The notes under the pieces were generated by a model. It searched no databases. It saw nothing but the letters and a program-made list of their open reading frames with translations, and was not told where the DNA came from. From contig NZ_JAMXWN010000007.1 in the NCBI RefSeq assembly GCF_024125425.1, positions 62,001 through 126,000 on the forward strand: a DNA stretch of 64,000 bases. Reading direction: 5' to 3'. Position numbers and translations under genes: made by a program. Positions within the stretch are counted from its first letter, which is position 1, and the number at the start of each line of letters is the position of its first letter. This stretch comes from Sporolactobacillus kofuensis (GTDB lineage Bacteria; Bacillota; Bacilli; Bacillales; Sporolactobacillaceae). Positions 461 through 61,145 of the stretch are shown here, piece by piece.

Positions 461-560
461 CGAATACGGCTTGCCGCGGGTAACCGCAAGCCTCCTCGAA
501 TCAGAGGATCTGCGAGGTCTCGCTGGCACCTGATCCCGAAGTCGTCTCGCGTCTCTGCTC
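461..560 (-). repeat. dispersed intergenic element, copy 1
   Basis: Read on the minus strand this shows the element core: GCGAGACG, then a CGGGATC block, GCGAGACC, CGCAGATC, GAGGAGGCT and CCCGCGGCAAGC. The same ordered blocks occur at 7766, 40614, 54400, 54996 and 60988. This copy lies just downstream of the rpsD terminator and is the only one on the minus strand. It appears to be non-coding. Confidence 0.8.
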
Positions 561-600
561 CACTTTAAGCAAAAAGTTTAATACTTCCTTACCTTGCAAA

Positions 601-635
601 AAAAAATCCTCACAGCTAAGCTGCAAGGATTTTTT
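601..635 (-). terminator. rpsD terminator
   Basis: On the minus strand a hairpin (AAATCC...GGATTT outer stem, CAGC...GCTG inner stem, loop TTA) is followed by a run of nine T. It lies 14 nt past the rpsD stop codon. Confidence 0.8.
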
Positions 636-648
636 ACAACGTGTTCTA

Positions 649-1251
649 TTATTTTGAATAGAATTCGACGATCATTGCTTCTGTGATCTCCGCAGGGAGT
701 TCCGAGCGTTCAGGAAGTCTGCTGTATGTGCCTTCGAGAGTTTTTTCGTCAAAAGTCAGGTATTCTGGAACAAATGTATTCGTTTCAACAGAATCCTTGA
801 TGATTACGAGGTTATGTGATTTTTCACGGACACCAATCGTTTCACCTGGTTTTACACGATAAGACGGAATATCTACACGTTTGCCGTTAACGGTAATGTG
901 ACCGTGGTTAACAAGCTGACGTGATTGTCTGCGTGTTCTAGCCAAACCAAGACGATAAACAAGGTTATCAAGACGAGATTCAAGCAGAATCATGAAGTTT
1001 TCACCGTGAACGCCTTTCATTTTCGCTGCATCATCAAATGTGCGACGGAATTGACGTTCATTTAAACCGTACATGAAACGCAGTTTTTGCTTTTCTTGTT
1101 GTTGACGTCCATATTCAGACAACTTAATACGTTGTGTCGGGCCGTGTTGACCAGGAACGTACGGACGCCTTTCAAGTTCTTTACCTGTACCGCTGAGTGA
1201 AATACCCAAACGGCGTGATTTCTTCCAAACCGGACCAGTATAGCGAGCCAT
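649..1251 (-). CDS. rpsD: 30S ribosomal protein S4
   Basis: A 200-residue protein matching bacterial S4 along its full length. The N-terminal part begins [16 protein letters not shown] and lacks the zinc-binding cysteines of the C+ form. An S4 RNA-binding domain lies at about residues 92-155, including [11 protein letters not shown] and the [13 protein letters not shown] region. S4 is a primary 16S rRNA binder in 30S assembly and usually represses its own translation. The start is set by GAAGGAGGA upstream of ATG at 1251. The gene is monocistronic, with its own promoter at 1486-1515, a leader of about 230 nt, and a terminator at 601-635. Confidence 0.98.
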
Positions 1252-1480
1252 AGAATGACTCCTCCTTCGTCATTTTATTCGAGAGTGTCCCTTAGACCTA
1301 TGATCTAAAGAAACAAACCCACGCGGTATAAAATGACACCTCTGCAAGCTCTTCCAAAGATATTTTGCCATCTTGTACCTTCGCCCAGGCAGTCTAGGTT
1401 ACACAGTACACCTCTTGTATATCAAGAGGAACAAAATAGAAATGCTTTGGACCCTTCCAGTGCTGCCTCATTTTACACGA
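1252..1480 (-). promoter_or_regulatory. rpsD 5' leader, probable S4 autoregulatory region
   Basis: About 230 nt of untranslated leader lie between the rpsD promoter and its start codon. Next to the gene, AATGAC and GTCATT at 1254-1274 form a 6-bp stem. The whole Shine-Dalgarno GAAGGAGGA fills its 9-nt loop. Firmicute rpsD leaders are known S4 binding sites that control translation. Assigning this leader to that family is inferred from position, length and the presented ribosome binding site; I did not verify the full pseudoknot. Confidence 0.6.
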
Positions 1481-1485
1481 AGGCA

Positions 1486-1515
1486 ATTATACCTTTATTT
1501 AAGGGATAATGTCAA
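1486..1515 (-). promoter_or_regulatory. sigma-A promoter of rpsD
   Basis: Consensus TTGACA (1510-1515), an 18-nt spacer and consensus TATAAT (1486-1491) on the minus strand. The -35 box begins only 2 nt past the msrC stop codon, so rpsD transcription starts directly behind msrC. Confidence 0.9.
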
Positions 1516-1517
1516 GC

Positions 1518-1967
1518 TTACAGATGAGCAACAAGTGTTTCAGCAAATGCTTCAAGAAATTGCTGATCATCTTCTGAAAATCGATCACAAATCGGACTAT
1601 CGATGTCGAGAACGCCAATCAATTCTTCGTTTTTGATGAGCGGTACCACGATTTCTGAGCGGGAAACTGCATCACACGCAATATGACCGGGAAATTCATG
1701 TACGTCTGGGACACGAATAATTTCTTTTTCCTGGGCTGCAGTTCCGCAGACGCCCTTCCCCAATGGAATCCGTATACAGGCAGTTTTTCCTTGGAAGGGA
1801 CCGAGAACAAGTTCGTTATTCTCGAGTAAATAAAAGCCAACCCAATTAATTTTATCCAGGCATTCGTTTAGCCAAGCGGATGCGTTTGCGAGATTAGCAA
1901 TACGGTTTGGTTCATCTTTTATTAAGGATTCAAGCACTTGAATTCGCGTTTTATTGACAGAGTTCAT
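1518..1967 (-). CDS. msrC: free methionine-(R)-sulfoxide reductase (fRMsr, GAF domain)
   Basis: A 149-residue single GAF-domain protein, the ytsP homologue beside rpsD. fRMsr enzymes reduce free methionine-R-sulfoxide in the cytoplasm using three cysteines. All three are present: Cys64 (KTAC), Cys74 (GKGVC) and Cys98 (HIACD), within the conserved NWVGFYLL ... GPFQGK ... GVCG ... VLDIDSP framework. The ATG at 1967 is preceded by GGGGTG. The gene is divergent from refZ. Its stop codon abuts the rpsD promoter. Confidence 0.93.
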   Translation of the reverse strand: MNSVNKTRIQVLESLIKDEPNRIANLANASAWLNECLDKINWVGFYLLENNELVLGPFQGKTACIRIPLGKGVCGTAAQEKEIIRVPDVHEFPGHIACDAVSRSEIVVPLIKNEELIGVLDIDSPICDRFSEDDQQFLEAFAETLVAHL

Positions 1968-2138
1968 TCGTTTTACACCCCGATTATCAGTGAAAGTACT
2001 CTCATTTTAACAGAAAGAGTCGGATATTTCAGCGTTGGTGTCGAAAGCTTTTTAAAGGGTAGACGTCATTTACGCCGAACGTATATAGTAAGAGCAGCAG
2101 ATTGGTGTCCGAATCAGTCAAGATAGGAGTGAAGATGA

Positions 2139-2789
2139 TTGACAATCAAAAGTGTACCTCAGGTCGGTAGGAAAAAATCAAAAGAAGCGGTTGTTCATTC
2201 AGCACTAAAATTGTTCAACATGGGCGGCTATGACGGTACATCTGTGCGTGCGATTGCTTCTGATGCTGGTGTGAATGTTGCACTCGTTTCCTATTATTTC
2301 GGGGGAAAACAAGGTTTATTAGAATACTTGATGTCAACATTCTTCGAAGGGTATTTGACGACACTTGAAGAGGCTCAGAAGGAGCACGAGGGTAAGGTAT
2401 CCGGAGCTGAGCAATTAACAATCATTGCAGAACAACTGATTCGTTATCAACAGCGGTATTTTTACCTTTCTCGCTTTGTTCAACGGGAAATGACGCTTGA
2501 CAATCAGCTTGTTCGCGAGTTGATGTCCAGCTATTTGATGAAGGAAAAGTTTTTACTTGGACGTTTATTTAAGGCGGTATTCGATAAAAATACGCGTAAT
2601 CCGATTCAACTTGAATTTGCAATTATTCAATATCGAGAGATGATCATTATGCCCTTCTTAGAGCCACAATACTTAAGAGAAGTATTTTTTATGCAGCCGA
2701 ATGAGTCATCCTTTTTGATACACTATGTGCGTTATATCCGTCATTGGGCGGCACAGTTAACACAAAGTCATGTATATGTTTCGAATTAA
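2139..2789 (+). CDS. refZ: TetR-family regulator RefZ (YttP)
   Basis: 216 residues with a TetR helix-turn-helix at about residues 15-60 (TSVRAIASDAGVNVALVSYYF) and an all-helical C-terminal domain. Its place between msrC/ytsP and ezrA is that of B. subtilis refZ, a Spo0A-induced DNA-binding protein that affects FtsZ ring positioning early in sporulation. The start is a TTG at 2139, with AGGAGT 8 nt upstream; a nearby ATG at 2135 is out of frame. Family membership is clear. The RefZ role is inferred from synteny and length. Confidence 0.88.
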   Translation: MTIKSVPQVGRKKSKEAVVHSALKLFNMGGYDGTSVRAIASDAGVNVALVSYYFGGKQGLLEYLMSTFFEGYLTTLEEAQKEHEGKVSGAEQLTIIAEQLIRYQQRYFYLSRFVQREMTLDNQLVRELMSSYLMKEKFLLGRLFKAVFDKNTRNPIQLEFAIIQYREMIIMPFLEPQYLREVFFMQPNESSFLIHYVRYIRHWAAQLTQSHVYVSN

Positions 2790-3172
2790 TGAAGAAGAAC
2801 AGGCGTTTTATTTTGTTCAGGAGCAATAACGTCTTTTCAACAAAAAGTAACTTTACATAGGAAGAACGATGGGTTAGAAAAACTTTGCAGAAGACCAAGG
2901 TCCGTGACGAATGATGATTAACTCTTACTCATCATCAATGACCCAGTACTGCAGGTGCGAGAAAATAGATAATGGAAAATTTGCTCGTCAGTGATCAGCG
3001 GATCTGGCGAGTTTCTTTGTGCCAAAATTTTCGGCGGAAAGCACATAGAAATTAAGTTGGGAGTCGGGTTCACACCTTCTTAACAACAGCATGATAAATA
3101 AAGAGCAGAAACCGTTGGAAATTGGACAAAATCCGAAATGTCTTATGAAAAATCGACAGATTATCTATTTTA
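2790..3172. other. 383-nt gap without a recognisable gene
   Basis: No ORF with a credible ribosome binding site. A GATGAT/ATCATC inverted repeat at about 2910-2935 and a CTCG/CGAG pair near 2984-3014 could form weak hairpins. No T-tract terminator is evident after refZ. Confidence 0.6.
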
Positions 3173-3203
3173 TTGACCTCAAACCACTTTATTTTGATAC
3201 AAT
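3173..3203 (+). promoter_or_regulatory. probable promoter of ezrA
   Basis: TTGACC (3173-3178) and TACAAT (3198-3203), separated by 19 nt, which is longer than ideal. It is the best sigma-A-like match upstream of ezrA. Confidence 0.6.
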
Positions 3204-3255
3204 ATAGACATTAAAAAGATATGTACGTTCCATGCGAGAATGGGGGAAATTCCGT

Positions 3256-4944
3256 ATGCTTTTTATTTTAGTCGGACTGATATTACTTATTATATTTATT
3301 GTTGCTTACGGTGCCTGGATGAGAAAAAGAACATTTGCAGGTATTGACCGTTCAGAAACAAGGCGAGAGGAACTGCTTAATCTACCGATTGCAAAGGAAT
3401 TGTCAAAAGTAAAGAATTTGAATATGGCAGGCGATACAGAATCCAAGTTCGACTTATGGCATAAAGATTGGGATACCATTGTTACCCAGTCCCTGCCGGA
3501 GATCGAAGAAACGCTCTTCAAAGCTGAAGAGTTTACTGAAAAGTATCGTTTTCATAAGGCGGATCTCTTGATCAAAGAAGCCGAAAACAAAATGACAACG
3601 ATCGATTCAAGGATCAAAGAAATCCTGAGCGAGTTGAACACGGTTTTGGAGAGTGAAACAAAAAACCGAGAAGAAGTTACACCGATAAAAGAAATTTTTC
3701 ACCAAATCAAAAAAGAACTCATCACAAAAAGAAGCCAATTCCATCGGACACTTCCCTCGCTTGAAAAATCTGTTCAAGAAATTGAAAATCAATTGAAAAG
3801 TTATGAGACGGAAACAGAAAATGGCAATTACTTGGAAGCACGGAAAGTACTGCTTGACGTGAAGCAGGCAGCAGAAAAGGTTCAGAATCAGATTAAAGCT
3901 GTACCTGGCCTTTATCAGGATCTCCATAAGGCGATTCCGGATCAAATAAAAGAACTTCGCCAAGGTCAGCAGGAAATGATCGAACAGGAATATAATCTTG
4001 ACCATTTACAAATCGATACACAGCTAGAAGAAATAGAAAAACACTGTACACTTATGGAAACAGCTGTGAATGAATTATCGCTGGAAGAGGCAAAAGATGG
4101 ATTGAGTGGCATCCATGATCAAATGGATTGGCTCTATGCACAGTTGGAAAAAGAAGTGATTAGTCGCAAAAAGCTTCAGGATTTAACACCGAAATTTGAG
4201 GAAAATCTTGTACGCGTTGAGGGAAAAATAAAAGAATTAAATAATGAAACAGAAATTATTCGCGATAGTTATCATATTGGCGAAGAAGATCTGAAGATGC
4301 AGCATGATTTAGGAAAGTCATTTCAAAAGTTGGAACGCGTATTTTCAGATACGCAAAGCGAAGAGCAACAAGAAGCATTTAGTTCAATTTATGAGCGGAT
4401 TGATTCTCTTCAGACAGATCTAGCCGAAATGGAGACCGTCGCTAATGAATTTAGCGCAAAAATAAAAACATTACGCAAAGATGAAATGAATGCTCGAGAA
4501 CAAATTCAGAAATTAAAAAAACAACTTTTTGAGACCAAGCGGATCATTCAAAAAAGTAATTTGCCGGGTGTACCGGGCTCATTTTCAGCTGCTGTACGGA
4601 AGGCAGGCGAGCAGCTTGAATCTGTGTATTTGAAGTTGGACGAAAAGCCATTAAATATGGTTAATGTACAATCACTTCTGACCCAAGCTTCTGAGGACAT
4701 TGAAAATGTCTTCCATCAAGCAGAGAAACTTGTGGATACCGCCAATTTTGCTGAGGAAATGATTCGATATGGAAACCGATATCGGACAGATTATCAGGAT
4801 ATTGATCAAGAACTCAAAGCTGCAGAACGTTATTTTAGAACATATGACTACCAGGCTGCTGTTGAAACGGCTGTTCGTGCTATTGAAAAAAAAGAACCGA
4901 AAATTTTAAAGCGTGCCGAATTATACGAAGGACACGAAGCTTAA
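3256..4944 (+). CDS. ezrA: septation ring formation regulator EzrA
   Basis: A 562-residue protein with one N-terminal transmembrane segment (about residues 2-20). The rest is almost entirely acidic, coiled-coil-rich cytoplasmic sequence made of spectrin-like repeats. EzrA is a membrane-anchored negative regulator of FtsZ polymerisation and part of the divisome in Firmicutes. I chose the ATG at 3256 because GGGGGAA lies 8 nt upstream and the length matches the B. subtilis protein; an in-frame ATG at 3232 has no ribosome binding site. The gene follows refZ, so two FtsZ-affecting genes are adjacent. Confidence 0.95.
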   Translation: MLFILVGLILLIIFIVAYGAWMRKRTFAGIDRSETRREELLNLPIAKELSKVKNLNMAGDTESKFDLWHKDWDTIVTQSLPEIEETLFKAEEFTEKYRFHKADLLIKEAENKMTTIDSRIKEILSELNTVLESETKNREEVTPIKEIFHQIKKELITKRSQFHRTLPSLEKSVQEIENQLKSYETETENGNYLEARKVLLDVKQAAEKVQNQIKAVPGLYQDLHKAIPDQIKELRQGQQEMIEQEYNLDHLQIDTQLEEIEKHCTLMETAVNELSLEEAKDGLSGIHDQMDWLYAQLEKEVISRKKLQDLTPKFEENLVRVEGKIKELNNETEIIRDSYHIGEEDLKMQHDLGKSFQKLERVFSDTQSEEQQEAFSSIYERIDSLQTDLAEMETVANEFSAKIKTLRKDEMNAREQIQKLKKQLFETKRIIQKSNLPGVPGSFSAAVRKAGEQLESVYLKLDEKPLNMVNVQSLLTQASEDIENVFHQAEKLVDTANFAEEMIRYGNRYRTDYQDIDQELKAAERYFRTYDYQAAVETAVRAIEKKEPKILKRAELYEGHEA

Positions 4945-5058
4945 GCAATGACATCAGGCAAGCCTCGTGTTAAGATTCAAACAAGATGGGTACAAATGAA
5001 ATTGTTTAACACTTATTTTGCTTTATCCGTTTGCTAAGAAGGGAGTTATTGTACGTTC

Positions 5059-6201
5059 ATGATTTATTTGGATAACAGTGCAACCACGAAACCCTACCCT
5101 GAAGTACTGGATACTCTCCGTACGGTTTCTGAACACTATTTTGCGAATCCTTCATCATTGCATAGTCTTGGAGGTAAGAGTGAAATGCTTTTGACGCGTT
5201 CGCGCGAACAGGCAGCTTCGCTTCTTCATATTGATCCGAGTGAAATTGTATTTACTTCTGGAGGGACAGAAGGAAATAATTTGGCGATAAAAGGCGCGGC
5301 ATTTGCCTATAGAAATAGGGGCAAACATTTAATTACAACTGCGATTGAACATGCTTCTGCGGGTCACGCATTTGAACAACTGGAAACACTTGGTTTTGAG
5401 GTCACTTATTTGCCTGTAAACAGCGAAGGTCGAATCTCGTTTGAACAATTCAAGAAAGCTTATCGTGAAGACACCATTCTTGTTTCGATAATGCATGTGA
5501 ACAATGAAGTGGGAACGATTCAACCGGTTGAGGAGATTGGTGCTTTTCTGAAAGATAAGCCTAAGACTGTGTTTCATGTCGATCAAGTTCAAGGGTTTGC
5601 CAAGGTTCCGTTACAGTTGCAAACGAGCGGCATAGATTTATGCACAATTTCCGGGCATAAATTTCATGGACCAAAAGGGACAGGCTTATTATACGTACGA
5701 AAAGGTACTCTACTGTCACCGCTTTTTGCTGGTGGCGGACAAGAACAGGAACGACGATCAGGTACTGAAAACTTGCCGGGAATATGCGGTATGGTCAAAG
5801 CCCTTCGACTGACACTTGAACATCAGCAAGAGGGAATTAATCATTTAAAAAGGCTCCAGAAAAAGTTGTTTGACGGGTTGAAAAACATTGACAATGCATC
5901 TGTTCATACGCCTGAACAGCTTTCAGCAGCACATATTGTTAATGTATCATTACTTGGAATAAAAGCAGAAGTATTGGTTCATGCACTTGAAAAAAATGAA
6001 ATCTATGTCTCCACAAAATCGGCATGCTCCTCGAAAGAAAATGGTGCGAGCGGCATTCTGGTTGCCATGGGAGTCTCACCGGACGAAGCTGAGCAAGCGA
6101 TACGGATTAGTATGGCTTATGAAACAACCGAACAAGAAATTGATGTTTTTCTTTCCACACTGGCTGAAACAGTCAACCAGTTAAAGATTGTAATGAGGTG
6201 A
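5059..6201 (+). CDS. cysteine desulfurase, NifS/IscS-like partner of ThiI
   Basis: A 380-residue fold-type I PLP enzyme. The PLP lysine sits in the SGHKFHGPKG motif and the persulfide cysteine in STKSACSS (Cys323). It moves sulfur from L-cysteine to an acceptor. The thiI start codon lies 6 nt after its stop. Such pairs (B. subtilis nifZ-thiI) supply sulfur for 4-thiouridine in tRNA. The only nearby Shine-Dalgarno (GGGAG) is about 14 nt from the ATG, so initiation may be weak; no other in-frame start is present upstream. Confidence 0.95.
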   Translation: MIYLDNSATTKPYPEVLDTLRTVSEHYFANPSSLHSLGGKSEMLLTRSREQAASLLHIDPSEIVFTSGGTEGNNLAIKGAAFAYRNRGKHLITTAIEHASAGHAFEQLETLGFEVTYLPVNSEGRISFEQFKKAYREDTILVSIMHVNNEVGTIQPVEEIGAFLKDKPKTVFHVDQVQGFAKVPLQLQTSGIDLCTISGHKFHGPKGTGLLYVRKGTLLSPLFAGGGQEQERRSGTENLPGICGMVKALRLTLEHQQEGINHLKRLQKKLFDGLKNIDNASVHTPEQLSAAHIVNVSLLGIKAEVLVHALEKNEIYVSTKSACSSKENGASGILVAMGVSPDEAEQAIRISMAYETTEQEIDVFLSTLAETVNQLKIVMR

Positions 6202-6206
6202 ATTGA

Positions 6207-7406
6207 GTGATTTATGATTATTTCGTGGTTCGTTTCGGCGAAATCACCCTGAAAGGTAAAAACAAAAAACAATTTGTCGTCAAGTTAGAGGACGATGTCC
6301 GAGAGAAGCTCCGTGAATTTCCTCAACTGGAAATCAAACGCCATTTTGATGATTTAGAAATTAAGTTAAACGGTGAAGATTCAGCGTCTGTACTTGCGAT
6401 TCTGCAACGAGTATTTGGTATTCAGAATATCTCTCCAGCCTTTAAAGTCGGCACAGAACTCGATCAAATACGTGAAGGTGTATTGCGTGTTGCCAACGAA
6501 GAAAAAGGAGCAAAGACGTTTAAAATAGCAGCTCGGCGAAAGGATAAACGTTATCCGATTCATGGCAGTGAATTGAATCAGGATCTTGGAGCGACAGTCC
6601 TAAGACAATGCGATTGGCTTAAAGTTGATGTCCATCGACCGGACTTACTCATTCGTGTTGAAGTCGGCTATCACGAAGCACGTATCTACGGAAAAGAAGT
6701 TAAAGGAGCTGGCGGACTTCCAGTTGGCACGAGCGGCAAAGTCATGCTTCTGTTGTCAGGAGGTATCGATAGCCCGGTTGCCTCATATCTCATTGCAAGG
6801 CGTGGTGCAACGATTGAGGCTATTCATTTCCAAAGCCCGCCATATACGAGTGATCGTGCAAAACAGAAAGTGATTGATTTGTCAAAGAAGCTCAGAGGTT
6901 TTACCGGAAAATTTATCCTCCATCTTGTGCCTTTTACAGAAGCTCAAGTTGCGATTCGTGACGCGGTACCTGAAGACTACCGGATCACGATTATGAGACG
7001 GTTAATGTTTCGCATTGCTGAAAAGGCTGCAATTCAACGTGGCGCGCTCGCACTTGCTACAGGAGAGAGCTTAGGACAAGTGGCGAGTCAGACACTAGAA
7101 AGCATGAATACCATTAATTCAGTCACAAATCTACCGGTGTTGCGTCCTCTGATCACTATGGATAAGATTGATATTGCACAAATTGCGAAAGATATCGACA
7201 CATACGATATTTCGATTCGTCCCTATGAAGATTGCTGTACAATTTTTCTTCCAAAAGCGCCTAGAACGCGCCCTGATCGAATTCATGCAGAGCGTTTTGA
7301 ACGCAAGCTCGCTGTTGATGAATTGGTCAATGCAGCAGTTCATGGCATTGAAACACTTGTCATTGATGCTGATACAAAAGAGGATGCAATTAGTGATCTG
7401 CTTTAA
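6207..7406 (+). CDS. thiI: tRNA 4-thiouridine synthetase ThiI
   Basis: 399 residues: an N-terminal ferredoxin-like/THUMP region (about 1-165), then a PP-loop ATPase domain with LLSGGIDSP at about residue 185. There is no C-terminal rhodanese domain, as in other Bacillales. ThiI adenylates U8 of tRNA and inserts sulfur from a persulfide donor. The GTG start at 6207 is set by GAGGTG, which overlaps the stop codon of the upstream desulfurase gene, indicating translational coupling. Confidence 0.96.
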   Translation: MIYDYFVVRFGEITLKGKNKKQFVVKLEDDVREKLREFPQLEIKRHFDDLEIKLNGEDSASVLAILQRVFGIQNISPAFKVGTELDQIREGVLRVANEEKGAKTFKIAARRKDKRYPIHGSELNQDLGATVLRQCDWLKVDVHRPDLLIRVEVGYHEARIYGKEVKGAGGLPVGTSGKVMLLLSGGIDSPVASYLIARRGATIEAIHFQSPPYTSDRAKQKVIDLSKKLRGFTGKFILHLVPFTEAQVAIRDAVPEDYRITIMRRLMFRIAEKAAIQRGALALATGESLGQVASQTLESMNTINSVTNLPVLRPLITMDKIDIAQIAKDIDTYDISIRPYEDCCTIFLPKAPRTRPDRIHAERFERKLAVDELVNAAVHGIETLVIDADTKEDAISDLL

Positions 7407-7453
7407 GGCTGTATTTCTTAAGAACTATTGAAATAATTACCATGACTCCTTGT

Positions 7454-7483
7454 GCATGTAGGAATTCGAGATTGCACATCATA
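7454..7483 (+). promoter_or_regulatory. sigma-G-type forespore promoter of the SASP gene
   Basis: GCATG (7454-7458), an 18-nt spacer and CATCATA (7477-7483) fit the sigma-G consensus (GHATR, CATNNTA). The expected start site is about 7490, directly before the ribosome binding site at 7491-7499, so the leader would be very short. Confidence 0.7.
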
Positions 7484-7722: not shown

Positions 7723-7747
7723 AAGGACGGCTTCGGCCGTCCTTTTT
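7723..7747 (+). terminator. terminator of the SASP gene
   Basis: A perfect 9-bp stem (AAGGACGGC/GCCGTCCTT) with a TTCG tetraloop and a T-tract. Confidence 0.93.
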
Positions 7748-7765
7748 ACTTATTGCTTGAAAAAA

Positions 7766-7865
7766 CAGCGAAGAGGCGAGACGCCTGCGGGATCAGATCG
7801 CAGAGAGACCCCGCAGACTTTTTGCCTTGTATGTGGAGGCTTGCCCGCGGCAAGCAATCGAAGAA
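7766..7865 (+). repeat. dispersed intergenic element, copy 2
   Basis: A clear copy: GGCGAGACGCCTGCGGGATC, GAGACCCCGCAGA, GGAGGCTTGCCCGCGGCAAGC, AATCGAAG. It lies between the SASP terminator and the his promoter. An AAGGACAG...TTTTT tail at 7881-7907 matches the 3' tail of copies 6 and 7 in position. Confidence 0.85.
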
Positions 7866-15814: not shown

Positions 15815-15834
15815 ACGATAAAAGATAAGCGGAA

Positions 15835-15953
15835 GTGAGCATAAGCCCGCCTTCGCCGTTACTAGAGACTTGACGAGCAAGTGGGAACCATCAGATGATG
15901 GATTGACTGTTTTGGCCCACAGATCGCCAGCGGTAAGCGAACATTCGAAGCAT
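15835..15953 (+). repeat. degenerate copy of the dispersed intergenic element (copy 3)
   Basis: Similar block order to copy 7 but with much sequence change: GTGAGC, then GACGAGCAAGTGGGAACC, GGCCCACAGATCGCC, GCGGTAAGCGAAC and ATTCGAAG. A GGATTCGGCGGTTTT tail follows at the usual distance. It fills the gap between the ytfJ terminator and the next promoter. Confidence 0.5.
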
Positions 15954-40564: not shown

Positions 40565-40613
40565 TCAAGAACGTCTGTGTAAAAAGTTTCTCGGAGGGAT
40601 TAGGTGCATCGTA

Positions 40614-40720
40614 AGGCGTAGTGCGAGACGCCTGCGGAAATTGCGAGCCAAGTGAGACCCCGAAGATCACACGTATGTATGAGGAGGCTCACGGATCGCC
40701 TGCGGCAAGCGAGCACTGAA
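40614..40720 (+). repeat. dispersed intergenic element, copy 4
   Basis: GTGCGAGACGCCTGCGGA, AAGTGAGACCCCGAAGATC, GAGGAGGCTCACGGATCGCC and TGCGGCAAGCGAGC in the family order. It lies between pstB and phoP. Confidence 0.85.
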
Positions 40721-40788
40721 AGCCTCACAATCAAGAAAAGCTTATCACATACTCAAAAACACGTATTGCTGTATCTTCAACCAAAAAT

Positions 40789-53912: not shown

Positions 53913-54269
53913 ATGGCAAGAGTTAAAGGCGGATATGTGACTCGTCGCAGACGCAAAAGAGTATTAAAATTAGCAAAAGGTTATTTTGGTGCAAAACACA
54001 AACTGTTTAAGGTCGCTCAGCAACAGGTCTTCAAATCCCTGACTTATGCTTACCGTGACCGTCGCCAAACAAAACGTAACTTCCGCAGACTGTGGATTGC
54101 GCGTATCAATGCAGCCGCTCGTCTCAATGGCTTATCATACAGCAAATTGATTAACGGCTTGAAAGTAGCTGGCATTGAAGTGAACCGTAAGATGCTCGCT
54201 GACCTCGCCGTTAACGACGCAGCAGCGTTCACAACACTCGCTGAAAAAGCAAAAGCAGCTGCTAAATAA
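53913..54269 (+). CDS. rplT: 50S ribosomal protein L20
   Basis: 118 residues beginning [24 protein letters not shown], with [26 protein letters not shown] in the globular C-terminal domain. L20 is an early 23S rRNA binder and the expected repressor of its own operon through the leader at 52860-53032. TAGGAGG precedes the ATG. Confidence 0.98.
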
Positions 54270-54281
54270 GTACGGCTGTTC

Positions 54282-54318
54282 AACCCCCCTCCGTTATTTT
54301 AACGTGTGGGGGTTTTGT
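54282..54318 (+). terminator. infC-rpmI-rplT terminator
   Basis: AACCCCC/GGGGGTT outer stem and CGTTA/TAACG inner stem with small internal loops, followed by TTGTTTT. Confidence 0.88.
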
Positions 54319-54399
54319 TTTAACTAAAGAAAGTATAAAATTTTGGACTTAGATACTCGGATGAACGACATTTATTTCGTCAAAATTTAGGCTCAAACA

Positions 54400-54516
54400 T
54401 GAAAATGCGAGACGCCTGTGGAGCGTTCCTGTTGATTGCAGGCCAAAGGAGGCCCAGCAGATCGTGGCTTGACCGAGGAGGCTCTTGGACTGCCCGCGGC
54501 AAGCGAGCAACTGAAG
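54400..54516 (+). repeat. dispersed intergenic element, copy 5
   Basis: TGCGAGACGCCTGTGGAGC, CCCAGCAGATC, CCGAGGAGGCTCTTGGACTG and CCCGCGGCAAGCGAGCAACTGAAG. It lies in the 475-nt gap after rplT. A small hairpin terminator-like structure (ACCAGG/CCTGGT, 54572-54592, with T tail) follows at the place of the tail hairpin in other copies. I see no gene in the rest of the gap. Confidence 0.8.
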
Positions 54517-54744
54517 TGTTATTTATGCACAAAGTTTGATGAATTAACCGGATAAAGAGTGATAGCCAAGGACCAGGCTTAACCTGGTTTTTCTAATACA
54601 TATAATATGGAAGGCGATGAAAATGCAAAGTTAATGATTGATCATTTTAATTGATGTACATGAGAGAATAAAAGAGAGCACCCGGGTGACAGGTGCTCTC
54701 GAATCACGAGAGGTGATGGAACTTGTGGCTATACAGTTCCATTA

Positions 54745-54843
54745 TTAGTAGCAGAATGCTGTGCCAACAATGATCAAAAGAATGAACAGAACGACGATCA
54801 ACGCAAAGCCACTACCGTGGCTGTATCCACCATCATAGCCCAT
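54745..54843 (-). CDS. YjcZ family small sporulation protein (first of two)
   Basis: 32 codons from an ATG at 54843, with AAGGAGG 10 nt upstream on the minus strand. The product has a Gly/Tyr-rich start (MGYDGGYSHGSG) and a single membrane-spanning segment (FALIVVLFILLIIVG), ending in Cys-Tyr. This is the YjcZ/YhaL-like peptide pattern found in spore membranes and coats of Bacillales. The membrane segment is identical to that of its paralogue at 55234-55389. Confidence 0.88.
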   Translation of the reverse strand: MGYDGGYSHGSGFALIVVLFILLIIVGTAFCY

Positions 54844-54995
54844 GAGTGAATAACCTCCTTATCACATGATAGTTCATCTTATGTTAGAAGTTCAGAAATG
54901 TAAGGGACAAATGCATAAGTCCAATGCCCAATTTTTGGGTGTTACTTGTTGAAAGATAGGAATGAATAAAACGTTGAGGTGCGATGTTCATTCAA

Positions 54996-55139
54996 AAGTG
55001 GCGATGCGAGACGCTTGCGAGATCACGTGCCGGCAAGATACCGCAGACTTTTGCGTGTTCGGGGAGGCTCACGGTGCCCCAGGCAAGGAGCAATCGAAGC
55101 AAAATCAATGCAAGATCAAGGACTGGGCGGTTTTTACCC
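54996..55139 (+). repeat. dispersed intergenic element, copy 6, with 3' tail
   Basis: GATGCGAGACGCTTGCGAGATC, ACCGCAGACTTTTGCG, GGGGAGGCTCACGGTGCCCC and CAATCGAAG. Then, 19 nt on, comes an AAGGACTGGGCGGTTTTT tail that could fold with the ACCCCA after it. It sits between the two yjcZ genes. A 75-codon open frame across it (54962-55189) is a by-product of its GC-rich sequence. Confidence 0.85.
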
Positions 55140-55233
55140 CATTCTTCTTAGCATATATGGAAAAGGGTACCTGGTGCAAGGTACCCTAATCATTGGAGTG
55201 ACATGATGATTATTAATGAAGGTTAGGTAATGA

Positions 55234-55389
55234 TTAATAAACAAAGGTTGCCCCAACGATGATAAGTAAAATGAACAGAACAACGATTAAAGCAAAATTA
55301 CTGCAGCAGTTGTTGCCATACCCGCCATATCCGCCGTATCCACCTTTGCAATCAGAAGCTCCGCCGTAATAAGGTTGATTATTATACAA
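55234..55389 (-). CDS. YjcZ family small sporulation protein (second of two)
   Basis: 51 codons from a TTG at 55389, with GGGGAGG 8 nt upstream. The N-terminal part is rich in Gly, Tyr, Asn and Cys (GGYGGYGGYGNNCCSN), followed by FALIVVLFILLIIVG, identical to the membrane segment of its neighbour at 54745. It is a YjcZ family spore peptide. No ATG is available in frame, so it is easily missed. Each copy appears to have its own ribosome binding site and promoter region. Confidence 0.87.
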   Translation of the reverse strand: MYNNQPYYGGASDCKGGYGGYGGYGNNCCSNFALIVVLFILLIIVGATFVY

Positions 55390-55524
55390 AGTCTACACCT
55401 CCCCATCACGTGATAATCCAGTATATGAGTTGGTGGCTCAATGCGGAATAATGAAAAAGCCCAGATTATGAAACAATAATAATGAAAGAACTATTCAGCT
55501 CTGAACGGGTACAGGTGGTTATGA

Positions 55525-55860
55525 TCATCTATGGATGACCACTTGAGTACCGACCGGAGCTTTAGAGGATAATTCAAGAACATCTGAATTAAAGAGTCGA
55601 ATACAGCCATGTGAGACATCTTTTCCAATCGAAGACGGATCGTTTGTTCCGTGGATCCCATAGTGTGGCCGTGAAAGTCCCATCCAAAGTCCGCCGTAGG
55701 GTCCGCCTGGATTCACTTGTTTATTAATAATTGTGTATGTTCCGGCTGGTGTTGGTGTCACCATCTTGCCGACGCCAATGGGGTACGTATTAAGTAATCG
55801 ATGATCATCGAATAGGTTTAGTTCATGTAGTGATGTTTTAATGTCGATCCATACCGCCAT
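55525..55860 (-). CDS. YkuD-type L,D-transpeptidase, domain only
   Basis: 111 residues covering just the YkuD catalytic domain. The catalytic motif is complete: His70 (YGIHGTN), then SHGCIR with Cys86 and Arg88. These enzymes form 3-3 cross-links or related bonds in peptidoglycan. There is no LysM or signal peptide, so it is either cytoplasmic in the mother cell or forespore, or exported some other way. The place among spore genes suggests cortex or spore-wall work (inference). GGAG lies 8 nt before the ATG. Confidence 0.88.
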   Translation of the reverse strand: MAVWIDIKTSLHELNLFDDHRLLNTYPIGVGKMVTPTPAGTYTIINKQVNPGGPYGGLWMGLSRPHYGIHGTNDPSSIGKDVSHGCIRLFNSDVLELSSKAPVGTQVVIHR

Positions 55861-55934
55861 GTAATCAGCTCCACGTTTTTATTAACTAGTTTATGATGCT
55901 GACATAGGTTCGTTAATATAAGATCCTATTCAAC

Positions 55935-55967
55935 AAAAAAAATCGAGAGAAGGATCTCTCTCGATTT
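55935..55967 (-). terminator. sspI terminator
   Basis: AATCGAGAGA pairs perfectly with TCTCTCGATT; on the minus strand a run of eight T follows. It lies 27 nt past the sspI stop. Confidence 0.9.
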
Positions 55968-55993
55968 CTTCGGTATTCTTTTGAATGAATCAT

Positions 55994-56197
55994 TTATACC
56001 CCTTGTTCCAAACGGGTCAACATCTGATCCCGAAAGGTATTGTCCGATTTGTTCCACAGAACTTCAAAGAGCACACCAAGGCCGGGAAGCATCTTCTCCT
56101 GACCGTCTTGAATTGCATCAACAACTGTATCCTGAAGCTGTTGTTTGTTGTTGCCCGATAAGTTATGCAGCACTGCACGGCGAATGTCTAAATCCAT
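55994..56197 (-). CDS. sspI: small acid-soluble spore protein SspI
   Basis: 67 residues highly like B. subtilis SspI: NNKQQLQDTVVDAIQDGQEK followed by MLPGLGVLFEVLW. It is a minor forespore SASP. AAGGAG lies upstream of the ATG at 56197. It is divergent from ysgA, the same arrangement as in B. subtilis. Confidence 0.95.
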   Translation of the reverse strand: MDLDIRRAVLHNLSGNNKQQLQDTVVDAIQDGQEKMLPGLGVLFEVLWNKSDNTFRDQMLTRLEQGV

Positions 56198-56299
56198 TAG
56201 GTCACGAACTCCTTTCTTTGAGCATTTAATGCTGGTGATATGGTATAGTATGGATAGTAGGCGGGCAATTATGTACCGTTTTTAAAGGGGTTCTTTTGT

Positions 56300-57067
56300 G
56301 TGCGACGAATGGTTTCTTTACAAAACGAAAAAGTGAAATTATGGAAAAAACTAAAAATAAGAAAATGGCGTGACCGCGAGCAACAGTATTTACTTGAAGG
56401 CCCGCATCTTGTCCAAGAAGCTGTGTTCTCTGCAAAAGAACAAATCAATACGATTTTGATCGATGTAGCTTTTCATCTTCCTCAGGATTGGCCGCTAGAC
56501 ACGATTGAAGTTTTTCAGGTCACGCATAAGATCTTTACTGAGCTGTCTCAAACAGAAACGCCGCAAGGCATAATTGCCATTTGTGAGATGAGTCAGTCAG
56601 CCATTCAATTACAGCAAGGCCGTTATTTGTTGGTGGATGGGGTTCAAGATCCGGGCAACTTAGGTACACTGATTCGAACGGCCGATGCATTTGGTTTGGA
56701 TGCTGTTTTTCTCGGTGATGGCTGTGTCGATGGCTATAATGCGAAAACGTTACGCTCCGCGCAAGGTTCCCATTTTCATCTCCCGGTGATCCACCGCAAC
56801 TTATTTAGTCTGGCAGATGAAATGAAAAACCAGAAAATTCCACTGTACGGCTCTTCGCTCCAAGGAGATGAACTGCATAAGGTAACGGTTGAACGTCCTT
56901 ATTTTGGTTTAGTGGTTGGTAATGAAGGAAATGGCGCATCTCCGGAGCTGTTGGCAGAAATGGATCAGCAGGTCAAGATTCCAATGGCGGGAAGAGCAGA
57001 GTCACTGAATGTTGCAGTTGCCTCTGGGATTTTGTTATATTGGCTTCAATCTGGTGGGCTTGCATAA
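56300..57067 (+). CDS. ysgA: TrmH/SpoU family RNA 2'-O-methyltransferase YsgA
   Basis: 255 residues: an N-terminal RNA-binding L30e-like domain (about 1-95; LLEGPHLVQEAV) and a SPOUT methyltransferase domain with the three knot motifs NLGTLIRTADAFG, VVGNEGNGASPEL and IPMAGRAESLNVAVASGILL. The likely substrate is 23S rRNA guanosine ribose. The start is a GTG at 56300 after AAAGGGG; the ATG three codons later is too far from the ribosome binding site. It precedes pheS. Confidence 0.92.
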   Translation: MRRMVSLQNEKVKLWKKLKIRKWRDREQQYLLEGPHLVQEAVFSAKEQINTILIDVAFHLPQDWPLDTIEVFQVTHKIFTELSQTETPQGIIAICEMSQSAIQLQQGRYLLVDGVQDPGNLGTLIRTADAFGLDAVFLGDGCVDGYNAKTLRSAQGSHFHLPVIHRNLFSLADEMKNQKIPLYGSSLQGDELHKVTVERPYFGLVVGNEGNGASPELLAEMDQQVKIPMAGRAESLNVAVASGILLYWLQSGGLA

Positions 57068-57088
57068 GTGTATGAAAATGCCTATACT
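57060..57088 (+). promoter_or_regulatory. promoter of the pheS T-box transcript
   Basis: TTGCAT (57060-57065), a 17-nt spacer and TATACT (57083-57088). The -35 box overlaps the ysgA stop codon. Confidence 0.8.
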
Positions 57089-57189
57089 AGGAAAAGAATG
57101 TCACAAGATTTGTTGTTCATTGAGCACGTTCCAATGAACGTATAGGAATAAAATAACTGTGATGGAGATTAGTAATTCAACGACGCCAT

Positions 57190-57396
57190 TCAGGGAGAGT
57201 ATGTCATTGACTGCAAGCATGCTCATGATACGAGTTGAACGAATTCACTCTTGAGTTGCCGTTTGAACCCGGTGAAATGCCGGTCTAGAATAGGCCGGCT
57301 TTCGCCGTTAAACGTTTTATAAGTGGGCAGCATTCATGCTGTCAACAAGGGTGGTACCGCGACGCTTCGTCCCTTTTTGGGGACGGGGCTTTTTTG
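57190..57396 (+). promoter_or_regulatory. phenylalanine T-box leader of pheST
   Basis: Stem I begins near the GGGAGAG at 57193. The specifier loop has GAATTCACTC, in which TTC (57244-57246, Phe) precedes the conserved ACTC/GAGT pair. The T-box core AAGGGTGGTACCGCG is at 57348-57361. A terminator stem (GCTTCGTCCC/GGGGACGGGGC) with a T6 tract ends at 57396. Uncharged tRNA-Phe should favour antitermination and pheST expression. Confidence 0.93.
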
Positions 57397-57434
57397 GTTT
57401 TAAGGATGTTCAAAAAGTGAAGGGATGAAGTGAG

Positions 57435-58472
57435 ATGTTAAAAGAGAAATTGCTTGAACTGCGTGAGCAGGCGTTCGAACACATCAGTTCGGCAGATGGA
57501 TTAAAGGCGCTTCAAGAGGTTCATGTCCGTTTTCTTGGCAAAAAAGGGCCAATCACAGAAGTCTTGAAGGGAATGGGCAAGCTTTCAGCTGAGGAACGAC
57601 CGGTTATCGGACAACTTGCCAATGATGTTCGAAAAATGATCGCGACGAAAATTGAAGAGAAGCGAACATACCTAGAAAATAAATTGCTTGAAACAAAGCT
57701 GGAATCAGAAAAAGTTGATGTCACATTGCCGGGAAGAAAATCAGAAACCGGGAATCATCATCTGCTTGGTTCGATTATTCGTGAGGTAGAAGACCTTTTT
57801 ATTGGTCTCGGGTTCTCCATTGAAGAAGGACCTGAAGTTGAGCAAGACTATTATAATTTCGAAGCACTGAACTTACCGAAAGATCATCCGGCACGTGATA
57901 TGCAGGATTCTTTCTATATTACGGATGATCTGTTGATGCGTACGCACACTTCACCGGTTCAGGCACATACCTTGGAAAAGCATAAGGGTGTTGGCCCTGT
58001 TAAAGTCATTTGTCCAGGAAAGGTCTATCGACGGGATAATGATGATGCCACGCACTCTCATCAGTTTATGCAGATTGAAGGTCTTTATGTTGACCACAAT
58101 GTACGTCTAAGTGATTTGAAAGGCATTTTGACTGTATTCGCGAAGCATATGTTTGGAGCAGATCGTGAGATTCGCCTGCGTCCAAGTTTCTTCCCTTTTA
58201 CTGAACCCTCTGTGGAGATGGATATTTCCTGCTTCAGGTGCGGCGGACATGGATGCTCAGTCTGCAAAGGTACTGGTTGGATTGAAATTCTTGGCGCCGG
58301 TATGGTTCATCCGAATGTGCTGCGGATGTCCGGGTTTGATCCAAGCGAGTACACCGGTTTTGCATTTGGGATGGGACCCGAACGCATTGCCATGCTGAAA
58401 TACGGGATTGAAGATATTCGAAATTTCTATACGGACGATATTCGTTTTCTGAAACAATTTAATCGGGCGTAA
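57435..58472 (+). CDS. pheS: phenylalanyl-tRNA synthetase alpha subunit
   Basis: 345 residues: an N-terminal coiled coil (about 1-90) and a class II catalytic core with [47 protein letters not shown] and the motif 3 [15 protein letters not shown]. It charges tRNA-Phe as an alpha2beta2 tetramer with PheT. A Cys-rich insert ([17 protein letters not shown]) is visible near residue 265. The T-box leader lies upstream. Confidence 0.98.
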
Positions 58473-58487
58473 AAGGGAGAGATTAAC

Positions 58488-60899
58488 ATGCTGGTTTCCT
58501 ATAAGTGGTTGAAAGAATATGTAGATTTAAGCGGAGTGACGCCGGAACAATTAGCAGATAAAATTACGAATGCCGGTATTGAGGTCGAACATATTAACTA
58601 TCCGGGGGAAGGCTTGAAGGGCATTGTCATCGGTGAAGTGTTAACATGTGAGCCGCATCCTGATTCGGATCATCTGCACGTGTGCCAAGTTAATTTAGGA
58701 TCGGAAACGGTGCAGATCGTCTGCGGTGCACCGAATGTTGCGGCGGGACAGAAGGTTCCGGTTGCCACGAACGGTGCAAGGATTGCGGGTAATGTCAAGA
58801 TCAGGCGGTCAAAATTTCGAGGTGTGGAATCGAACGGTATGTTATGCGCACTGAGTGAACTGGGCGTCGATAAGGCTTTGGCACCTTACGAAGACGGCAT
58901 TTATGTTTTTGACGATGAAGTACCGGTGGGTGAAGATGCACTGCCTTACTTGAATCTCGATGATGCCATTCTCGACTTGGATATTCTTGTGAACAGTGCC
59001 CACTGTATGAACATGATCGGTGTTGCCTATGAAGTGAGCGCCATTCTCGATCGACCGGTTCAAATTAAAGAGCCGGTAGTTGAGGAAACGGATCAAGAAA
59101 CTGCTGAAAAGGTTCGTATCACGGTTGATGCCGAGGATAAAGTTCCTTATTACAGTGCACGAATGATGACAGGTATTAAAATCTTACCCTCACCGCGCTG
59201 GATGCAATTGCGCTTGATCGCAGCCGGTGTCCGTCCAATTAGTAATGTCGTGGACATTTCTAATTATGTGATGTTGGAATATGGTCAACCGTTGCATACT
59301 TTTGATTATGACAAGTTCGGGTCCAATCATGTGTCTGTTCGCTTTGCAGGGGACAATGAAGAATTAACGACTTTAGATGGGAAAAAAAGAGCGCTGAATG
59401 CTCATGACTTGCTCATTACGAATGGGCATAAAGGTGTTGCACTTGCCGGTGTTATGGGTGGCCAAAATACAGAAGTTTCCGCGTCTACTGAATCTGTTCT
59501 GCTCGAAGCTGCAGTGTTTGATCCAATGACCATCCGCAAAACGGCCGCTCGACTATCCTTGCGTTCTGATGCCAGCAGCCGTTATGAAAAAGGGATAGAT
59601 CGGAACCGCGTTGCACGTGCTGCAGACCGTGCCGCAGAATTGCTTACAAAGTTTGCTCATGCGCGTGTGCTCAAAGGGATCGTAGAAAAAGGAAAACGTA
59701 CAGTGCCGGAACATAAGATCACAATGCCATGGCAGAAGATTAATCAAGTGCTTGGTTCGGATCTGACTTGTGAACAAATTACCGGTACCTTAAAAAGGTT
59801 GAATTTCTCTGTTACAGGAGAAGGCGAAATCATGCATGTATCCGTACCTGCAAGACGGTTTGATGTCACGATTCCAGAAGATCTAGTTGAAGAAGTCGGT
59901 AGGATTTTCGGGTATAATCACATTCTTGCAACGCTTCCTGAGGGTACATCATCGCACGCAGCACTGACACCGTATCAGAAGATGCGCCGAAGAGTGGAGC
60001 TATTGATGGAAAGTATCGGGTTGAGCCAGGTCTACACCTATTCTTTGACAACAAAGGAAAATGCTTCCTCCTATGCGGTTGAGACGAGAGATACGGCACC
60101 AACTCAAGTCATTTGGCCGATGAGCGAGGAACATGGGGCGCTTCGGCAAAGTATTGTTCCTCAACTGCTTAACGTTGTCCAATATCATCTGAATCGACAG
60201 ATGCCGAATGTGAAGTTCTATGAAATCGGAAAAGTATTCCTTCCGGTTAGCGGTGATCCAAGGCCTGCTGAAGAAGAGCATTTGGCCGGAATCATCACAG
60301 GTAAACGGACTGAACGAAATTGGGAAGGTGAATCAACGGACGTAGATTTCTTCTCAGCAAAAGGAATGGTTGAAACTCTGTTTGATGCGTTAGCGGTTAG
60401 TGATCAAATCGACTATCAGCCTTCTAAAAGAGAAGGGATGCACCCTGGCCAAACCGCAGATATTTTATTCAATGGGCGAGTGATTGGTTATGTTGGTGCC
60501 CTGCATCCTAAGGTACAAGCTAACCACGGACTCAATGAAACCTATGTGTTTGAAATTGCTATTGAATCACTGCTGCGTCATGGGGAACCTGCGATTGATT
60601 ATCATATTTTGCCACGTTTCCCTTCGACAACACGTGACATCGCATTAGTCGTTAAACGAACAGTTGCTGCTTCAGACCTTAACCGTGTCATTAAGGAAAA
60701 TGGTTCACCGCTCCTCAAATCTGTGCGCCTCTTTGATGTTTATGAGGGCGATCACGTTGCGGATGATGAAAAATCTATGGCTTTCTCACTTGTGTATTTT
60801 GATCCGGAACGGACCTTAACGGATGATGAAGTGAATGCCATTCATGAGAAGATTGTCAGTGCCTGTGCAGAACAATTTGGAGCAGAACTGAGAGGTTAA
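58488..60899 (+). CDS. pheT: phenylalanyl-tRNA synthetase beta subunit
   Basis: 803 residues: an N-terminal EMAP-like tRNA-binding domain (about 40-150; DHLHVCQVNLG), B3/4 editing domain (about 210-385), B5 domain (about 405-475), the catalytic-like core and a C-terminal ferredoxin-fold anticodon-binding domain (about 708-800; FPSTTRDIALVVKR). AAAGGGAG precedes the ATG. rnhC and zapA, which follow pheT in B. subtilis, are absent here. Confidence 0.98.
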   Translation: MLVSYKWLKEYVDLSGVTPEQLADKITNAGIEVEHINYPGEGLKGIVIGEVLTCEPHPDSDHLHVCQVNLGSETVQIVCGAPNVAAGQKVPVATNGARIAGNVKIRRSKFRGVESNGMLCALSELGVDKALAPYEDGIYVFDDEVPVGEDALPYLNLDDAILDLDILVNSAHCMNMIGVAYEVSAILDRPVQIKEPVVEETDQETAEKVRITVDAEDKVPYYSARMMTGIKILPSPRWMQLRLIAAGVRPISNVVDISNYVMLEYGQPLHTFDYDKFGSNHVSVRFAGDNEELTTLDGKKRALNAHDLLITNGHKGVALAGVMGGQNTEVSASTESVLLEAAVFDPMTIRKTAARLSLRSDASSRYEKGIDRNRVARAADRAAELLTKFAHARVLKGIVEKGKRTVPEHKITMPWQKINQVLGSDLTCEQITGTLKRLNFSVTGEGEIMHVSVPARRFDVTIPEDLVEEVGRIFGYNHILATLPEGTSSHAALTPYQKMRRRVELLMESIGLSQVYTYSLTTKENASSYAVETRDTAPTQVIWPMSEEHGALRQSIVPQLLNVVQYHLNRQMPNVKFYEIGKVFLPVSGDPRPAEEEHLAGIITGKRTERNWEGESTDVDFFSAKGMVETLFDALAVSDQIDYQPSKREGMHPGQTADILFNGRVIGYVGALHPKVQANHGLNETYVFEIAIESLLRHGEPAIDYHILPRFPSTTRDIALVVKRTVAASDLNRVIKENGSPLLKSVRLFDVYEGDHVADDEKSMAFSLVYFDPERTLTDDEVNAIHEKIVSACAEQFGAELRG

Positions 60900-60911
60900 T
60901 ATAATGAAATG

Positions 60912-60948
60912 AAACCGGTGTGGGCATGAGCCTCCTCCGGTTTTATTT
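60912..60948 (+). terminator. probable pheST terminator
   Basis: AAACCGG (60912-60918) pairs with CCGGTTT (60937-60943) around an 18-nt loop, then TATTT. The loop is large and the T-tract modest. Confidence 0.55.
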
Positions 60949-60987
60949 AAAATAAGACAGTATTAAAGTTTTTGGCTTAAAAATGAA

Positions 60988-61145
60988 GTGAGCTGCGCGG
61001 CGCCTAGGAGCGTCCTGGTGATCGCGAGACAAGTGAGACCCGGAGATCGCAGGTTGTGACCGAGGAAGCTCACGATCACCGAGGCAAGCAATCAAGCAAA
61101 GCGGAATTGAATCAAAATAAGAACTGGGCGTTTTGCCCAGTTCTT
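60988..61145 (+). repeat. dispersed intergenic element, copy 7, with hairpin tail
   Basis: GCGGCGCCTAGGAGC, GCGAGACAAGTGAGACCCGGAGATC, GACCGAGGAAGCTCACGATC and GAGGCAAGCAATCAAGC. Then, 19 nt on, comes a perfect 11-bp hairpin (AAGAACTGGGC/GCCCAGTTCTT, 61119-61145). It occupies the gap between pheT and cvpA; no gene is visible in this 400-nt stretch. Confidence 0.85.

Follow-up and report, generated by a model that had tools for sequence, protein, structure and literature searches.

Terminator-associated intergenic repeats of Sporolactobacillus as probable MITE-like mobile elements with a structured core found across Bacilli

The 64,000 nucleotides (nt) of Sporolactobacillus kofuensis DNA analysed here (contig NZ_JAMXWN010000007.1 of assembly GCF_024125425.1, positions 62,001 to 126,000 of the forward strand; referred to as the window, with its first letter as position 1) contain a repeated sequence which an earlier reading, made from the letters alone, had described as recurring between transcription units. 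The question raised by this locus is what these repeats are and how they came to occupy such positions. The answer proposed here, to which we assign a probability of roughly 0.72, is that they are non-autonomous mobile elements of Bacilli, similar to miniature inverted-repeat transposable elements (MITEs), which share a rod-shaped core of approximately 112 nt and are moved in trans by transposases. Mobility is evident from the large number of copies, from the near identity of copies found at unrelated sites and from empty sites in relatives.

The core, its fold and its distribution

Seven sites in the window were identified as copies of a single core of approximately 112 nt, by direct reading of the motif blocks and with two models. 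Model R1 was built from 26 copies, six of which came from the window (the site at 15835 was left out), and model R2 from 88 cores taken entirely from outside the window's own genome, six of them (L072, L073, L075, L078, L280 and L320) from other genomes of the genus and 82 from other genera. R1 gave exactly seven matches in the window at E ≤ 1, the weakest at 15823-15952 (E 3.5e-9). R2 recovered these seven places only, five of them at E ≤ 1e-5 and the weakest two at 54990-55101 (E 0.012) and 15868-15952 (E 0.29), the last of which would not count by itself. The six recognisable copies and one degenerate copy listed in the sequence-only reading were thus all recovered, also by a model to which the window had contributed nothing.

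Copy 1 (456-564; R1 70.8 bits, R2 3.8e-12) lies on the minus strand, as that reading had stated for its copy at 461, and the remainder lie on the plus strand: copy 2, with a shortened centre, at 7762-7865 (65.1 bits, 2.4e-13), the degenerate copy 3 at 15823-15952, copy 4 at 40610-40724 with the arms TGTGTAAAAAGTTTCTCGG ... AAGAAAAGCTTATCACATAC, designated class B (101.4 bits, 6.9e-23), copy 5 behind rplT at 54393-54518 (97.5 bits, 1.1e-13), copy 6 at 54992-55101 (68.2 bits) and, in the gap between pheT and the gene after it, copy 7 at 60982-61103 (57.6 bits, 1e-5). All are located between long open reading frames (ORFs), so that their description as intergenic stands, an antisense ORF of 86 amino acids (aa) over copy 7 (60943-61203) having been set aside. 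The sequence blocks quoted in the same reading are genuine parts of the element but not its full extent, as the complete unit with its arms measures approximately 200-290 nt and often closes with a terminator-like hairpin of its own.

Drawn by hand on the basis of individual rows and folds, the core takes the form of a rod in which helices are stacked: an outer helix (P1), an internal loop, P2, a variable P3, P4 and a terminal loop. A tandem G.A step is possible in the internal loop GAGAC/AAAGCGAG (read by eye). P2 pairs TCC-U-GCGG with CCGC-GGA and corresponds to the GC-rich blocks previously noted as partly complementary (CGCCTGCGGG with CCCGCGG), and P4 pairs NNNGAG with CTCNNN. For some copies, minimum-energy folding instead paired CTGCGGG with a middle CCCGCAG block; the rod was retained because changes in P2 track the 3' block (rows L083 and L085, by eye). 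RNAalifold recovered only part of the structure from the first alignments.

Strong covariation was observed in three alignments, of 26, 88 and 131 sequences, with counts that refer to related sequences and not to independent events. In the 26 copies 88.7% of cells paired, and 42 cells carried a double change compared to 11 ± 2.7 after shuffling and 2-13 when the pairing was slid; two coarser measures gave weaker results, namely 10 pairs with a double change compared to 6.7 (equalled in 16 of 500 shuffles) and 31 further pair types compared to 26.9 (17 of 500 shuffles). Among the 88 cores, aligned on sequence only, 1537 of 1669 cells paired compared to 610-764 of 1532-1585 in slid versions, and one column pair was occupied by TA in 38 cores, GC in 30 and CG in 16. 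The 131 distinct copies from the window's own genome gave 82.6% paired cells (29-37% slid) and 185 double changes, compared to a mean of 74 and a maximum of 96 in 200 shuffles; slid versions, scored against other commonest pairs, held 101-139 double-change cells.

The copies were not confined to the window. When 150 out of 527 candidates in its own genome (G000, 2.96 Mb) were scored, at least 138 model matches at E ≤ 0.1 were obtained, 137 of them having E ≤ 0.0012, and the 16-nt 5' block was present with up to two mismatches at 99 places compared to 0 for the pattern read backwards, from which it follows that the similarity is not an effect of GC composition. Neither of the outcomes named in the sequence-only reading as refutations was therefore seen. 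An early estimate of hundreds of copies per genome was therefore correct in order of magnitude, although the one copy per 9 kb on which it was based reflects a window that is denser than the genome as a whole (approximately one per 21 kb). ORFs of at least 150 aa were overlapped by only 3 of the 138 copies, two of the three overlapping a single antisense ORF that runs through a tandem array; shorter ORFs, which overlap many copies, were set aside as spurious.

The element was found in 47 of 58 genomes (own included) and in 31 of 42 genera, with between 4 and at least 64 matches per genome within Sporolactobacillus. Matches to one query fell at identical positions in G001, a genome of the same genus as the window by its kinship label, and in G058, the Sporolactobacillus spathodeae genome that contains L280, which agrees with the placing of the window in Sporolactobacillus. 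Recurrence in other Bacillales, which had been suggested in the sequence-only reading, was confirmed by a pattern scan, where the matches listed included named genomes of Peribacillus, Priestia, Cytobacillus, Neobacillus, Metabacillus, Oceanobacillus, Sporosarcina, Planococcus, Salibacterium, Psychrobacillus and others. Twenty named genomes, picked for having a match, contained from 24 to at least 150 copies each, eight of them above 100. In a sample of 299 genomes from the phylum, scored with at most 12 candidates and strict filters, three genomes had a match among those listed: the own genome, one of three others of the same order and one of seven of the same class. Among the genomes sampled the core was confined to Bacilli, except for one record labelled Arthrobacter; the core in question (L292) sits in a record labelled Arthrobacter beigongshangensis, a label taken as given.

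A search of plasmids gave no match for a window copy, and the copy from another genome of the genus (G002, locus L075) matched 15 plasmid records, each over at most 80% of the query. The same G002 copy, the one query used, had no match in phages, and one pattern gave no match in viral contigs. Rfam 15 at gathering score identified only the T-box leader before pheS in the window (57150-57377); a 0.9-kb stretch searched at a relaxed E-value gave no relevant family, and a TPP riboswitch was the sole match in another eight loci. Literature searches, in which coverage of subscription papers was poor, brought up no account of the element.

Placement behind terminators in Sporolactobacillus

The proposed location at the boundaries of transcription units was borne out, the repeats being dispersed, foldable and intergenic, and it could be described more closely. 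Copy 1 lies behind the terminator of a minus-strand gene (649-1251), with a terminator-like hairpin and T-run upstream of it at 598-630 on the same strand. On the plus strand, the intrinsic terminator of the upstream gene (7723-7747) stands immediately 5' of the copy 2 element, the rplT terminator (54282-54321) is followed directly by the copy 5 element, which starts at 54322 and has a terminator-like 3' end (AAGGACCAGGC TTAA CCTGGTTTTTCT; 54568-54594), and the pheT terminator (60913-60948) lies immediately 5' of the copy 7 element, with a terminator-like 3' end at 61120-61147 (AGAACTGGGCG TTTT GCCCAGTTCTTCT). Copy 6 is flanked by small minus-strand ORFs at 54745-54843 and 55234-55392, both ending FALIVVLFILLIIVGxxxxY, which we take to be YjcZ-like sporulation proteins; extra multi-place DNA matches around this copy are probably due to these two ORFs.

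Across the own genome, using simple ORF calls, the upstream gene was on the same strand for 105 of 118 copies (120 were not labelled class B, of which 118 had an upstream gene called). A terminator-like hairpin with T-run was detected by rule upstream of 56 of 100 single or first-in-array copies in sense, compared to 17 in antisense. On contigs C39 (10/0), C9 (8/0), C23 (2/16) and C43 (0/6) all or nearly all copies point the same way, while C41 (11/5) and C5 (2/4) hold a mixture, a pattern which may be due to gene strand, since 50 of 55 called ORFs in the window are on the plus strand.

In genome G011, near-identical units begin right after the T-runs of unrelated terminators; their right end reads GGACCGGGC..GCCCGG TTTTTCTTA, and their common left end is TTACAAGKAAAGAAAGTATA. 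A left-end search in this genome gave 37 places compared to 0 for the control. From 30 fetched loci 25 distinct left-end sites were picked by script, and a hairpin with T-run was found directly upstream of 23 of these compared to 104 of 2000 random places in the same loci; in a second control, 129 of 300 random places already holding a T-run had a hairpin. At approximately eight of the 25 sites the upstream terminator belongs to another such unit, and copies in the own genus form head-to-tail arrays, as insertion behind a unit's own terminator would yield.

Orthologous sites were compared at pheT, where no core was present in the loci of G002, G006, G008, G009 and G010. Two relatives do carry core sequence there, at the identical position after the T-run: G007 a different copy (R1 1e-11) and G004 a 49-nt remnant (R1 0.004). 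Other inserts are present at this site in G002 and G010, and a long tandem array of ATATCGCTGTTCAGCCGAAAATATCGCCGTTCG-like units was seen between pheT and the next gene in G010 (L176).

Several G011 units have the same two ends and different interiors. A second interior, found in units of 334-380 nt which also lie behind terminators, contains repeated AAATAGACGGARAAATTCCGCTTA hairpins and has no core (L427, L429, L440 and L452); it is therefore by their shared ends that these mobile units form one class, within which the core is one interior among others. Arms are likewise combined in different ways, with the 5' arm of one subtype joined to the 3' arm of another in G011 unit L243, and a terminator-type 5' arm joined to a class B 3' arm in the own genome (C40:28825). 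Class B copies have complementary arms of approximately 20 bp (TGTGTAAAAAGTTTCTCGG / CCGAGAAAAGCTTGACACA) and no terminator-type end, and those in the window (40600-40730) and at about a dozen places in G000 are mostly upstream of a same-strand gene; automatic labelling gave 18 class B copies including chance matches, of which about a dozen looked right by eye. In G017 (L074, approximately 1332-1619) an element flanked by a direct repeat of approximately 57 nt, which includes a promoter-like stretch, was observed, and a further copy, reduced in length, lies on its 5' side.

A regulatory RNA kept by the host as a 3'-UTR (untranslated region) stabiliser or small RNA, with copies arising by duplication and selected for their position, would be in keeping with the strong covariation, with the 105 of 118 copies on the strand of the upstream gene and with the terminators in which G011 units end. 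We consider this explanation improbable, as the number of matches varies from 4 to at least 64 inside one genus, the corresponding sites of relatives are empty or hold other copies, target duplications occur and the core is found within insertion sequences (both described below), and G-U pairs are not in excess over A-C.

Group IIC introns insert behind terminators in sense. A retro-element whose RNA is copied up to its own terminator and inserted by a terminator-seeking reverse transcriptase of the group IIC type would accordingly give sense insertion, a 3' terminator belonging to the element, and arrays. This possibility is given very little weight here, since no RVT_1 match was obtained in G001, G007, G011 or G013 despite at least 64, 55, 43 and 62 element matches respectively, and no group II intron was matched in the window with Rfam at gathering score; the presence of reverse transcriptase does not follow element number, and it was rejected as the mobiliser.

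The lack of target duplication in window-type insertions, together with their fixed orientation to the terminator, would also suit elements of the repetitive extragenic palindrome (REP) kind moved by a Y1 single-strand transposase of the REP-associated tyrosine transposase (RAYT) type, for which no target duplication, a hairpin near the right end and a fixed orientation are expected. Of 58 genomes, 51 encode Y1 proteins, many of which were read as long and RAYT-like, and REP sequences resemble the element here in being intergenic hairpins of high copy number. They differ in that the element has a much longer structured core and no consistent Y1 gene: G001 has at least 64 matches yet no Y1 match, G056 has 13 Y1 matches and no element, and a search of 24 Y1 loci (approximately 3-5.5 kb each) with R1 gave a single core. 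Y1/RAYT was rejected as the mobiliser, as its presence does not follow element number and no RAYT gene flanked by the repeats was seen in these loci, and we regard an origin of this kind as unlikely.

Transposons that carry the core

Evidence for the MITE-like reading was obtained from elements in which the same core accompanies a transposase or lies between terminal inverted repeats (TIRs). Sixteen equally top-scoring places were retrieved from Peribacillus simplex VanAntwerpen02. They belong to full-size insertion sequences, and in all eight translated loci a transposase ORF starts inside a long repeat, with the core placed between this start and one end of the repeat, antisense to the ORF. 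This ORF begins MLSKHDSIQR, with frames reaching 393-440 aa where uninterrupted (masked letters included), and matches DUF772 of Pfam (PF05598, 7.6e-24); an incomplete frame with a few masked letters matches NCBIfam transpos_IS1182 (NF033551) at 2e-59 and 201.8 bits, below the 270-bit cut-off. The core-side end of the insertion sequence abuts a hairpin and T-run at 15 of 16 places by rule, compared to 84 of 1500 random places, and at the sixteenth by eye. Both ends were available in six loci, and three of these show a duplication of the entire hairpin (26-34 nt).

A complete element of 1875 bp was found in G035 (L417, 135-2009), with the ends GAGGCCACTGAAAAAGT / AGTTTTTCAGTGGCCTC, a transposase frame of 485 aa and the core in the same position; it is flanked on both sides by GGCTACGCC, the terminal mini-hairpin of another core which it had entered. 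In G047 a decayed IS1182 element still has its core in this position and is bordered at either end by terminator hairpins that are nearly identical to each other, and G017 has a partial element of the same layout. These three are among six IS1182 loci with a core in the fetched stretch; in G053 and G029 just a transposase remnant lies behind the core, and in G022 the core is elsewhere.

Inverted repeats and terminator hairpins have been reported as targets of IS1272, a member of the IS1182 family, and duplication of the whole stem-loop is one pathway in the model proposed (PMC5678879, in the part available). The flanks in P. simplex, G047 and G035 fit this hairpin-targeting model. Available parts of the papers on IS1272 and TnSha1 describe stem-loop replacement or deletion (PMC5678879, PMC4923244), and the terms MITE and non-autonomous are absent from the accessible part of PMC5678879. 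The resemblance to IS1272 and TnSha1 lies in the targeting of hairpins and terminators and in the IS1182-family transposase encoded by the carriers described here; the window elements differ in being noncoding, in keeping the target terminator and in showing no duplication.

The arms of the element are often inverted repeats, 29 of 105 loci (in other genera and some members of the genus) exceeding the 95% null level, and GGCT-type TIRs with 8-bp target duplications enclose the same core in MITEs. A TIR motif was present on both sides in 28 rows, equal to 27 copies as L310 was counted under two motifs, and the flanks were identical at 7 or more of 8 positions in 15 of the 28 rows (14 of 27 copies) compared to 1.6% in a swapped-flank null. 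Elements with the T1/T3 motifs occur in other genera and in G002 and G010 of the own genus; since rows L075 (G002) and L072 (G010) combine TIRs and duplication, this form is not foreign to Sporolactobacillus. TIR pairs with such duplications delimited 21 units in the loci scanned, 20 of which held core motifs, a figure which shows what the TIRs enclose and not how often the core is enclosed, as most loci had been chosen for the core; no transposase fitting these TIRs turned up. Like MITEs, the elements are short, noncoding and present in many copies. The class is termed MITE-like. IS1182 carriers, as candidate autonomous partners, were seen in P. simplex and G035, and no gene linked to the element was seen among the families tried in G000 and G001.

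A number of observations weigh against a mobile element of this kind. G-U cells are about as frequent as A-C cells (242 compared to 218 and 41 compared to 37 in two alignments), which gives no support for a role as RNA, and the folded form may be either RNA or DNA. Three of the six P. simplex loci with both ends have differing flanks and no hairpin duplication, and a core was near only 6 of 30 IS1182 loci, so that it recurs among these elements without being present in all of them. No target duplication was found in five of five rows with the TIR motif set T2, and window-type copies show neither clear TIRs nor target duplication. A downstream terminator was detected by rule at only 29 of 100 own copies (7 in antisense), and placement follows no strict rule, the core behind rplT in G003 being reversed, further off and after other repeats (L182). 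Finally, G001 had no match to Y1, RVT_1, ISL3 or PF13751, and G000 had none to ISL3 or PF13751, its one Y1 and two RVT_1 matches not being linked to the element. G011 holds two PF13751 copies. ISL3 was rejected as the mobiliser, as its presence does not follow element number, as was IS1182 (PF13751) within the own genome, where it has no match.

Proposed explanation and relation to known repeats

On the reading favoured here, the window copies would have arisen by transposase-driven insertion guided by terminator hairpins. An inserted copy which itself ends in a terminator would in turn become a target, giving head-to-tail arrays, and recombination across the core may have allowed elements to exchange arms and ends. 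By analogy with IS1272, the units in the window are most simply understood as non-autonomous elements placed near terminators by a transposase, a step which we infer because none of the four families matches in G001.

The presence of the same core in terminator-type elements, in TIR MITEs and in IS1182 elements makes it one module common to several kinds of transposon, and its retention in several vehicles, some of them lacking a transposase, suggests that it is of use in transposition or protection. It may be preserved for its fold, either as an aid to transposition or as a guard of the element against transcriptional read-through. It is tentatively suggested, at somewhat less than even odds, that the core is a portable transposon part, serving as a docking fold for a transposase or host factor, or as a read-through shield, in IS1182 elements, GGCT-TIR MITEs with 8-bp target duplications and terminator-capped elements alike, and that in Sporolactobacillus it is one of several interchangeable interiors between a shared left end and a shared right end with a terminator, which would be moved by some terminator-seeking machinery.

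Bacterial MITEs such as bcr1, RUP and NEMIS (named in the part of PMC3733652 available) are likewise short, foldable and present in high copy number, and one form of the element described here has TIRs and target duplications. It differs from them in that one core occurs with different ends, a preference for terminators and a distribution over many families of the order; bcr1 of Bacillus cereus was set beside it by description only. Bhal-1 of Bacillus halodurans, a stem-loop family of 74 bp and 36 copies, typed 'I' and with a predicted conserved structure (PMC2267715, as far as available), also belongs to Bacillales and could, from the accessible description, be a fragment of this family. One of the 250 mobile or repeat sequence candidates in PMC11109978 could equal the element, again going by the description in the available part.

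An element which can exceed 100 copies per genome (138 matches in G000) had no Rfam match and no description that was found in the literature. It offers a natural experiment on transposases which recognise terminator hairpins, on the exchange of transposon parts and on the effect of many extra terminator-adjacent hairpins on transcription ends. RNA-seq data and terminator maps from the carrier genera should be interpreted with this element in mind.

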